NCBI GenBank assembly: GCA_946184255.1
Contig: CAMHFA010000003.1
Span: 1-17,413, forward strand
Origin: an uncultured Bacteroidales bacterium
Lineage (GTDB): Bacteria; Bacteroidota; Bacteroidia; Bacteroidales; UBA932
Reading direction: 5' to 3'
DNA: 17,413 nt
Shown here: piece by piece, positions 6,112-17,413 of the stretch
How the letters are laid out: the number at the start of each line of letters is the position of its first letter
Position numbering within the stretch: the first letter of the stretch is position 1
The notes under the pieces: generated by a model
What the model saw: only the letters and a program-made list of their open reading frames with translations
Told to the model about the DNA's origin: nothing
The model's database searches: none
Program-made: the position numbers and the translations under genes

Positions 6112-8051
6112 TTTCTATAAACGGACTTACCGTAGCTTACGGCGGATTCACCTTGCTGGATAACATAGATTTCCACATCAGCGGGTCCGACAAGATCGGA
6201 CTTGTTGGTAAGAATGGTGCGGGTAAGTCCACTATTATGAAGCTGATCTGCGGACAGCAGAATCCGACTTCAGGTTCTGTTGACAAGCCCAATGACCTCA
6301 GGATCGGCTACCTTCCGCAGATAATGGAGCATTCCAGGGGGCGTACAGTCATGCAGGAGGCCATGACAGCCTTCGATCATATCACTTCCATAGAGAAAGA
6401 ACTTGAGGGCATCAACCTTCAGCTGTCAAGCAGGACTGATTATGAGTCCGAATCCTATCTTGAGCTGATTACCCGGCTTAACGACCTCACGGACACCCTT
6501 GCTATGACCCACAGCGAGCCACTGGAGGTTCAGGCTGAGAAGACTCTGCTTGGGTTGGGTTTCAAGGATTCTGACTTCAACCGCCCCACTGAAACATTCA
6601 GCCAGGGATGGAACATGAGGATAGAACTTGCCAAGATCCTCCTCTCTTCTCCGGACATCCTGCTTCTGGACGAGCCTACCAATCATCTCGACATAGAATC
6701 AATAGAATGGCTGGAAGATTATTTGAAAGCTTATCGGGGTGCGCTGCTGCTGGTGTCACATGACAGGAAATTCCTGGACAATGTCACCAACAGGACTGTC
6801 GAGATCATGCTCGGTCACATCCATGACTACAAGGTTCCTTACAGCAAGTACATGGAACTGAGGAAGGAACGGCTTGGACAGCAACAGGCAGCCTATGCCA
6901 ACCAGCAGAGGATGATCGAGAAGACGGAAGAATTCATCAACAGGTTCCGTTATAAACCGACCAAGTCAAACCAGGTCCAGTCCAGGATAAAGCAACTCGA
7001 GAAACTTGACAGGATAGAGATTGACGAGACTGACAATGTCAGCCTCACCGTCAAGTTCCCTCCTGCCCCAAGGGCAGGTGACATAGTCTTCAAAGCCAGC
7101 GGGCTAACGGCCGGTTATCCTGGAAAAGTCGTGTTCAAGGATGCGGATATAGAGGTCAAGAGAGGGGAGAAGGTCGCCCTGATAGGGCGTAACGGAGAAG
7201 GTAAGACCACACTGATGCGAGTTATCACCGGTGAGCTCGCTCCAATTGATGGAGAGGCCAAGACAGGTTATAATGTCCTGATGGGATATTACGCTCAGAA
7301 CCAGGAAGATATCCTTGATGGCAGCCTTACTGTCTGGGAGACTCTGGAGCGGATAGCTGTTGGCGATATCAGAGGCAGGCTGAGGGATATACTGGCCCAG
7401 TTCCTTTTCCGTGGCGAGGATATTGACAAGAAGGTAAGTGTCCTTTCCGGAGGAGAGAGGGCGAGGCTTGGAATGGCCAAGTTCATGCTCCAGCCCTATA
7501 ATCTCCTGGCTTTGGATGAGCCTACCAACCATATGGACATCAAGTCCAAGGAAATACTCAAGCAGGCGTTGAAGGCGTTCGATGGCACATTGATTGTTGT
7601 GTCTCACGACAGGGATTTCCTTGACGGCCTCGTTGACAAGATGTACGAATTCAGGGATGGCCGTGTAAAGGAACATCTCGGCACCGTTAAGGACTTCCTT
7701 GAGAGGCGGAAGATCGAGAGCCTGCAGGAGTTGGAAAGGAGATTTCCTGGTTCTGCAACTTCCTCTGCAAACCAAACACCTGTAACGGAAGCCAAAGACC
7801 AGGCACGGCAGGACTTTGAAAAGAAGAGGGGAGAATCCAGGGAGATTCGCAGGTTGAAGCACAGGGTGGAGTTCGTTGAAGGTGAAATCGGAAAGATTGA
7901 AGCTAAGATGAAGGATCTGGATAAGGTGCTGTCAAATCCTACGGCCAGTGATGACATCATGGAACTTACGAGAACTTACCTGGAGTCAAAGAGGGAACAG
8001 GATAGGCTGACTGCCGAATGGGAGGATCTCATGATTAAATTGGAACAATAG
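6108..8051 (+). CDS. ABC-F family ATPase (Uup/EttA-like, ribosome-associated)
   Basis: This 647-residue soluble protein has two ATP-binding cassettes and no membrane helices, the ABC-F plan. These proteins act on ribosomes, freeing stalled complexes or, in some branches, protecting from antibiotics. Domain 1: Walker A GKNGAGKST (34-42), signature FSQGW (164-168), Walker B LLLDEP (185-190), His218. The linker (about 250-305) is the Arg/Lys-rich P-site tRNA-interaction motif region (FINRFRYKPTKSNQVQSRI). Domain 2: Walker A GRNGEGKTT (360-368), LSGGE (446-450), LALDEP (467-472), His500. The C-terminus (about 580-647) is a coiled coil, as in Uup/YfmR-like members. The first signature deviates (Gln for Gly), while the second is canonical. 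It overlaps tatC by 4 bases. A housekeeping role is more likely than drug resistance. Confidence 0.94.
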   Translation: MISINGLTVAYGGFTLLDNIDFHISGSDKIGLVGKNGAGKSTIMKLICGQQNPTSGSVDKPNDLRIGYLPQIMEHSRGRTVMQEAMTAFDHITSIEKELEGINLQLSSRTDYESESYLELITRLNDLTDTLAMTHSEPLEVQAEKTLLGLGFKDSDFNRPTETFSQGWNMRIELAKILLSSPDILLLDEPTNHLDIESIEWLEDYLKAYRGALLLVSHDRKFLDNVTNRTVEIMLGHIHDYKVPYSKYMELRKERLGQQQAAYANQQRMIEKTEEFINRFRYKPTKSNQVQSRIKQLEKLDRIEIDETDNVSLTVKFPPAPRAGDIVFKASGLTAGYPGKVVFKDADIEVKRGEKVALIGRNGEGKTTLMRVITGELAPIDGEAKTGYNVLMGYYAQNQEDILDGSLTVWETLERIAVGDIRGRLRDILAQFLFRGEDIDKKVSVLSGGERARLGMAKFMLQPYNLLALDEPTNHMDIKSKEILKQALKAFDGTLIVVSHDRDFLDGLVDKMYEFRDGRVKEHLGTVKDFLERRKIESLQELERRFPGSATSSANQTPVTEAKDQARQDFEKKRGESREIRRLKHRVEFVEGEIGKIEAKMKDLDKVLSNPTASDDIMELTRTYLESKREQDRLTAEWEDLMIKLEQ

Positions 8052-16561: not shown

Positions 16562-17413
16562 ATGAAATTCCAACCAACTGAGTACAAATTGATGGATGTA
16601 GGCACCGGCAGGGTGTTCGAAGACTCCGGATGGAACCTGGCAGATCCTCAGGCACCGGCACCTTCACTTGTAAGGGCCGTCTATGCCAATGAAAAGTTCA
16701 CTCCCAGGGATAATCTCAAAGGCCTCTACAGGTACGCTGACTGGCTTCCGATTAAGAGAACCCTGAAGAAATCCCATGCGCCTGTGACATACAAGAGCAA
16801 GGGACTTGCCGACCTCCTTGAAATGGATAACCTCTTCATAACCCTTTCGGGGTATGTCCCTAAGAAGGGAGCCAGGATGGAGACCTGCTCTTTCAAGGAA
16901 ACAGAAGCCTTCTCCGTCTGTGCAAGGCTTCCGAAAAATGATAAGCACATCCTGGTGGTCCAGTCGGCCGGAAACACCGCCAGGGCTTTCGCCAGGGTAT
17001 GCTCAGACAATGATATTCCGATTGTCATCTGCATCCCTAATGACAACATCTCGGATCTTTGGTTCACCAGGAGGATAAAGCCTTGCGTTAAGGTCATTGC
17101 AACTCCTCATGGAACTGATTATTACGATGCTATCGCCCTGGGAGAGAAGCTCTGCAAGGATTCACGCTATCTTGCCGAAGGCGGAGCTAAGAATGTTGCC
17201 CGCCGTGACGGCATGGGCACGACAATCCTTAGCGCGGTTGAGACAATAGGACGGATACCGGATGCTTATTTCCAGGCTGTAGGAGATCGGAAGAGCGTCG
17301 TGTAGGGAAAGGAAAACGCCTGCAGGCTTGAGAAGGACGGTCGTTTCGGCCGCAATGAGATGAGGGTTTACTGTGTCCAGAATGCTCCTTACACCCTGAT
17401 GTATAACTCATGG
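16562..17413 (+). CDS. Cysteate synthase (PLP enzyme), interrupted by adapter sequence, 3' end cut by window
   Basis: The protein is a fold-type II PLP enzyme related to threonine synthase. The whole pattern resembles cysteate synthase, which makes L-cysteate from O-phosphoserine and sulfite: WLPIKRTLKK, PVTYKSKGLADLL, LFITLSGYVPKKGA, ETCSFKETEAF (PLP Lys112), VQSAGNTARAFA, EGGAKNVARRDGMGT and FQAVG. Cysteate feeds sulfonolipids in Bacteroidetes and coenzyme M in some archaea. Residues 1-241 are intact. Then codons 242-250 read DRKSVV, stop, GK: exactly the TruSeq adapter. After it the same frame resumes with ENACRLEKDGRFG and VQNAPYTLMYNSW to the window edge, again family-like. Nine codons are replaced where the family has the phosphate-binding SGTG loop (SGTGxIxAW), so length is kept. 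The stop is an artefact. Threonine synthase is the main alternative. Confidence 0.8.
17284..17311 (+). other. Illumina TruSeq adapter sequence embedded in the contig
   Basis: The 28 bases begin AGATCGGAAGAGC, the common TruSeq adapter start, and continue GTCGTGTAGGGAAAG, the reverse complement of the universal adapter; the next base departs from it. Translation gives DRKSVV and a stop, a peptide known as an adapter read-through signature. The sequence on both sides belongs to the same gene and frame, so it has replaced about 27 bases of native sequence. Confidence 0.97.

Follow-up and report, generated by a model that had tools for sequence, protein, structure and literature searches.

An Illumina adapter stretch at the SGTG position of a probable cysteate synthase gene in an uncultured Bacteroidales assembly

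Introduction

In the draft assembly of an uncultured Bacteroidales bacterium (GCA_946184255.1; 262 contigs, 58.69% complete), an open reading frame of 247 codons at positions 16562-17305 of contig CAMHFA010000003.1 ends with the C-terminal residues DRKSVV shortly before the contig itself ends. This raises the question of whether the organism makes a shortened enzyme or whether the stop codon arose in the laboratory or during assembly. The window analysed here comprises 17,413 nucleotides, and a first-pass annotation, made from its letters, had proposed the latter, attributing the stop to 28 bases of unremoved sequencing adapter. Here, we compare these bases with adapter sequence, the surrounding gene with its homologues, and the locus with other assemblies that carry the same 28 bases, and we weigh the ways in which such a stretch may have come to lie inside a gene.

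Results

The stop codon lies within an exact adapter match

On the + strand, positions 17284-17311 read AGATCGGAAGAGCGTCGTGTAGGGAAAG, which is identical, with no mismatches, to the first 28 bases of the reverse-complemented TruSeq universal adapter. The match begins at the ligation A of the adapter (AGATCGGAAGAGC...) and holds for 28 of 28 bases from adapter base 1; at the 29th base the adapter has A and the window has G. The core AGATCGGAAGAGC, presumably common to both TruSeq adapters, occurs once in the whole genome. Allowing up to three mismatches, the 28-mer has one match in the window and no other across the genome (1,438,136 bases, 262 contigs), where an exact match would be expected by chance ~4e-11 times (2 x 1.44e6 / 4^28). 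None of 200 dinucleotide-preserving shuffles of the window gave any match to the 28-mer at three or fewer mismatches, and no 12-base piece of the P7 and Nextera sequences, as entered, was present in the window. The adapter points outward, toward the right and nearer contig end, which lies 102 bases past it at 17413. The features of the locus, together with genes from elsewhere in the window, are as follows.

16562..17283, + strand: 5' part of the cysteate synthase gene (PALP family, PLP-dependent), ending within the Gly codon of FQAVG, after its second base; by TIGR03844, PF00291 and the homologues L003 and L004
17284..17311, + strand: Illumina TruSeq universal adapter, reverse complement, bases 1-28, most likely replacing 27-28 native bases; exact match and only copy in the genome
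17303..17305, + strand: false TAG stop derived from the adapter, at which the open reading frame 16562-17305 terminates; the search of the own genome counts one in-gene TAG
17312..17413, + strand: the same gene continued in the same frame, 34 codons to the contig end; TIGR03844 positions 237-270, agreeing with L004 at 33 of 34 residues
443-14369: Pfam content comprising Maf, HAD hydrolase, class I tRNA synthetase with valyl-type C-terminal arm, thioesterase, TatC, ABC ATPase, DUF2807, M19 dipeptidase, CinA and queuosine biosynthesis protein

Of the last of these regions, we note that the ten open reading frames scanned by Pfam look like ordinary genes. As the first-pass annotation had stated, the 28 bases are TruSeq universal adapter in reverse complement, and they create the stop. 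We conclude that the stop at 17303-17305 is a confirmed artefact of the laboratory or the assembly and no biological feature.

Both flanks match the cysteate synthase family

The frame before the adapter (...FQAVG) matches the NCBIfam family TIGR03844, cysteate synthase, over profile positions 1-227 (E 1.8e-74), with its 241 residues also matching PF00291 (E 9.4e-13), and the frame after the adapter (ENACRL..., 34 residues) matches TIGR03844 over the positions listed above (E 1.3e-5). The unmatched profile positions 228-236 are exactly the nine between the two pieces, and the adapter covers the last base of the Gly codon and then nine whole codons. Scored separately, the pieces reach 250.9 and 24.2 bits, to be read against the curated cut-off of 324.9 with the gene being cut by the contig end; the full-length homologues L003 and L004 reach 421.6 and 423.6 bits. 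Both homologues have an open frame and are 92% and 90% identical, respectively, to the interrupted gene. The PDB chain nearest to L004, 9k3c, is named cysteate synthase and contains FQAVG-SGTGAIAAW-E, and, of the database relatives listed, the four with an organism name (P0011, P0015, P0023 and P0107, which are 74-82% identical to L004) come from organisms named Bacteroidales bacterium or Candidatus Cryptobacteroides. These names suggest that the genus is probably Candidatus Cryptobacteroides, or one near it. Judged by these comparisons, the interrupted gene appears to be a cysteate synthase of a Bacteroidales bacterium, and 16562-17283 and 17312-17413 are two sides of one protein. In Chryseobacterium gleum, cysteate synthase is reported to perform the first step of sulfonolipid synthesis (PMC11211663). 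The assignment of the FQAVG and ENACRL frames to one PLP enzyme in the first-pass annotation is borne out by the two TIGR03844 matches; as for the extent of the gene, that annotation was correct in calling the adapter stop false but overlooked that the gene runs off the contig. Because the contig stops at 17413, the gene would be partial even without the adapter: the contig covers 284 codon positions of it, against 427 residues in L004, a shortfall of ~143.

Native bases are most likely replaced rather than displaced

Homologues were searched for in 61 genomes, including the own genome, and found in 33. We compared 29 loci from other genomes, with five more matches in other genomes (one of them full-length) standing outside the comparison, and set aside L031, a distant paralogue with 25% identity, leaving 28 loci that are 54-92% identical to the interrupted gene over its N part. 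In 28 of 28 loci, nine residues starting with SGTG lie between the flanks, preceded by FQA[V/I]G and followed by EN or EA, at the place that is covered by adapter in this contig; the nine residues are SGTGAIAAW in 22 loci, SGTGTIAAW in two, SGTGTIAVW in two, and SGTGAIAAF and SGTGAIAAY in one each. We take the SGTG stretch to be the part that binds the PLP phosphate in PLP enzymes of this fold. Nine residues starting with SGTG are likewise present in all 120 proteins listed of 7931 matches to L004, none of which carries DRKSVV, and the adapter stretch is absent from all 28 loci, which include no clear member of the same species.

Compared with the 28 loci, the DNA is on average 81% identical in the 30 bases left of the adapter and 63% identical in the 30 bases right of it, against 31% within the adapter itself; with the near relative L004 alone, 69 of 89 bases agree to the left, 8 of 28 inside the adapter and 84 of 102 to the right. 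The lower identity to the right looks like that of a more variable stretch of the gene. Judged from these alignments, the two flanks most likely derive from a single gene in one kind of organism, with 28 bases of adapter standing in for 27-28 native ones. The first-pass annotation had claimed that native bases were overwritten without a shift of frame and that the nine replaced codons coincide with the SGTG stretch, and it had proposed an alignment with intact orthologues as a check; this alignment places the nine residues from SGTG precisely where the adapter sits, and agrees with both claims. Its statement that any annotation of a 247-residue protein ending in DRKSVV is wrong also stands, given the intact homologues and the listed proteins free of this ending.

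As a separate observation, the residues at the contig end (within 17312-17413) read MYNSW. This N stands at a place occupied by D in 27 of the 28 homologous loci and by N in L028; it may be a natural substitution or an error close to the contig end.

With regard to intact copies, the closest relative among the 120 listed proteins shares 92.1% of residues in the N part and 97.1% in the C part, and none is clearly conspecific. A search of the own genome with full-length L004 returned the interrupted gene as its sole match (E <=0.001), with neither an intact copy nor the remainder of the gene on a second contig; because the genome is only 58.69% complete, the missing second copy tells little.

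In other assemblies the 28-mer lies nearly always at contig ends

A scan of genome_contigs found the 28-mer in at least 120 stretches, and the 123 places among the matches listed are a sample rather than a total. Of these 123, 38 end exactly in the adapter, 58 leave 1-60 bases after it and 27 leave more than 60, with the adapter pointing to the nearer contig end in 122. The scan of viral_contigs likewise found at least 120 stretches, and its sample of 126 places among the matches listed comprises 87 that end exactly in the adapter, 26 that leave 1-60 bases and 13 that leave more than 60, the adapter pointing to the nearer contig end in 124. Within the phylum, 8 of 395 genomes (the own genome included) contain the 28-mer; the seven others have it at 11 places, always at a contig end: at nine of them the contig stops exactly with the adapter, and at the other two 11 and 13 bases follow it. 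Within the genus, it is present in 4 of 400 genomes, again counting the own genome, and in the three others (L284, G708:C72; L285, G641:C123; L286, G738:C50) it leaves 5, 0 and 18 bases at contig ends. These three were considered as further internal cases and rejected because all their adapters are at contig ends.

The first-pass annotation had named the same 28 bases in independent genomes as an observation that would speak against contamination. The 28-mer is indeed widespread, but it is so as adapter; because it lies nearly always at contig ends and is absent from the 28 homologous loci, its presence elsewhere supports contamination rather than refuting it.

The 40 places with more than 60 bases left were inspected by eye, over the first 30 bases in the 27 from genome_contigs and the first 60 in the 13 viral ones. 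At most of them the adapter runs on with errors, an index or poly-A; in L245, poly-A follows the adapter and is itself followed by other sequence. Two further arrangements were seen: a Marmoricola MAG carries two adapter arms back to back at a contig end (L133:6632-6685), and in the viral contig L271 the 28-mer is followed by a second adapter arm, which we take to be the other TruSeq arm. Native sequence resuming after 28 adapter bases is rare among the places inspected.

The only one of the 40 shown to resume the same gene, on translation, which was applied to this locus, is L078 in an uncultured Archangium MAG (CALNBU010000891.1). Here, a 30-base adapter run at 7009-7038 lies inside a gene for a PolX-type DNA polymerase/PHP protein, and the open reading frame stops at the adapter TAG, again ending in DRKSVV. 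The frame is kept, and the motifs NP and GHPTGR are 10 residues apart, versus 5 in the PolX structures 3au2 and 2w9m (as read from the ends of local alignments), so that the gene is ~15 bases, or about five codons, longer than expected from the two structures. L078 was therefore rejected as a second case in which length is kept.

Contamination and the route into the consensus

We consider it very likely, with a probability of roughly 0.96, that adapter contamination replaced native bases and made the false stop; the assembly step by which this happened lies outside this figure. The sole point in favour of the organism truly carrying the sequence, as a natural truncated protein or a pseudogene of 247 residues, is that the assembled contig reads so. 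Against it stand an exact match to a synthetic oligonucleotide over 28 bases, at the chance expectation given above, and the absence of the sequence from all 28 homologous loci and all 120 listed proteins, and its probability is close to nil. We reject natural truncation, as the first-pass annotation had done, on the exact synthetic match and the intact homologues, and we also reject a pseudogene made by native or mobile DNA because the disrupting bases are synthetic adapter. The gene is most likely intact in the organism, and the homologues suggest that the living cell most likely has a normal SGTG stretch.

How the adapter entered the consensus is less firmly answered. Adapter concatenates such as those in L133 and L271 lend something to the idea of a chimeric library molecule (insert-adapter-insert) that was formed by ligation, sequenced and assembled, but random ligation would link unrelated pieces and here the flanks are one gene at native spacing; we reject this very improbable explanation on that ground. 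The main rival concerns the mechanism and competes with the overlay step described below, not with contamination: an adapter-tailed contig may have been joined end to end with the next one during gap closing or scaffolding, the equal length being coincidental. Adapter tails are common enough for this, as the 38 of 123 and 87 of 126 listed places that end in adapter illustrate, and the mid-gene adapter of L078, with its five or so additional codons, also speaks for it. Blind joining would, however, seldom keep both length and frame, and at the present locus the flanks are spaced just as in all 28 homologous loci. We regard end-to-end joining as unlikely here, though far from negligible.

Given contamination, we think it probable that the tail of a read or contig was laid over overlapping sequence at a contig end of low coverage, and we favour such a consensus overlay because the register is exact on both sides. 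Specifically, a short library fragment would end at ~17283 and its read would continue into the ligated TruSeq adapter, the orientation at 17284-17311 presumably being that of the tail expected from library design in read 2 of a short insert. If this tail were left untrimmed, a position-wise consensus over overlapping reads or contigs could be won by the sequence carrying the 28-base adapter tail, and another sequence would supply the consensus from 17312 up to the end of the contig at 17413. Such an overlay would have happened near a contig terminus, a region in which sequencing depth tends to be low. We infer this route from the assembled consensus rather than from raw reads. Because L078 did not keep the native length, an exact overlay is not the sole route to an internal adapter, and in-register replacement is not a general rule and could be partly a matter of luck at the present locus.

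Discussion

Recognition of the adapter averts a false claim of a truncated cysteate synthase or of a novel short PLP protein ending in DRKSVV; the 247-residue product should not be annotated and the contig should be flagged for correction. For curators, the case shows that an adapter can occur within a coding frame and be followed by native sequence, and that checking only the last bases of a contig is insufficient. We tentatively raise the idea, which we hold to be less likely than its opposite, that overwriting of native bases internally and in register forms a distinct, little-recorded mode of contamination by adapter, in which length and frame are kept and native sequence stands on both sides. 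If this is true, overwriting would escape clean-up by end-trimming and leave reference databases with spurious stop codons in conserved genes. Among the papers listed in our literature search, we recognised no other as dealing with internal adapter overwriting, and such papers may nevertheless exist.

Compared with the family TIGR03844 and its solved relative 9k3c, the contig gene is alike in that the sequences on either side of the adapter align to consecutive sections of the profile, and it differs in that its SGTG stretch is overwritten and its C-terminus lies beyond the contig end. The closest published counterpart of the contamination is that of Moeller et al. 2024 (PMC11536531), who describe Illumina adapter contamination of microbial genome assemblies as concentrated at contig extremities, with the adapter in an example assembly ending ~10 bases from the contig end on average and never more than 74. 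In its main text, "middle of", "internal", "edge" and "overwr" do not occur. The paper also quotes the adapter arm CGTCGTGTAGGGAAAGAGTGT, the first 15 bases of which are present in the adapter stretch of the window. The two cases agree in the order of universal adapter and arm, in the position near a contig end and in the outward direction; they differ in that here 102 native in-frame bases follow the adapter, native bases are replaced and the contig is not ended by the adapter. In the plain form, adapter with index or poly-A makes up the contig terminus; in the present contig, the native gene resumes after 28 bases. The present case is, therefore, the published contamination with a rarer outcome.
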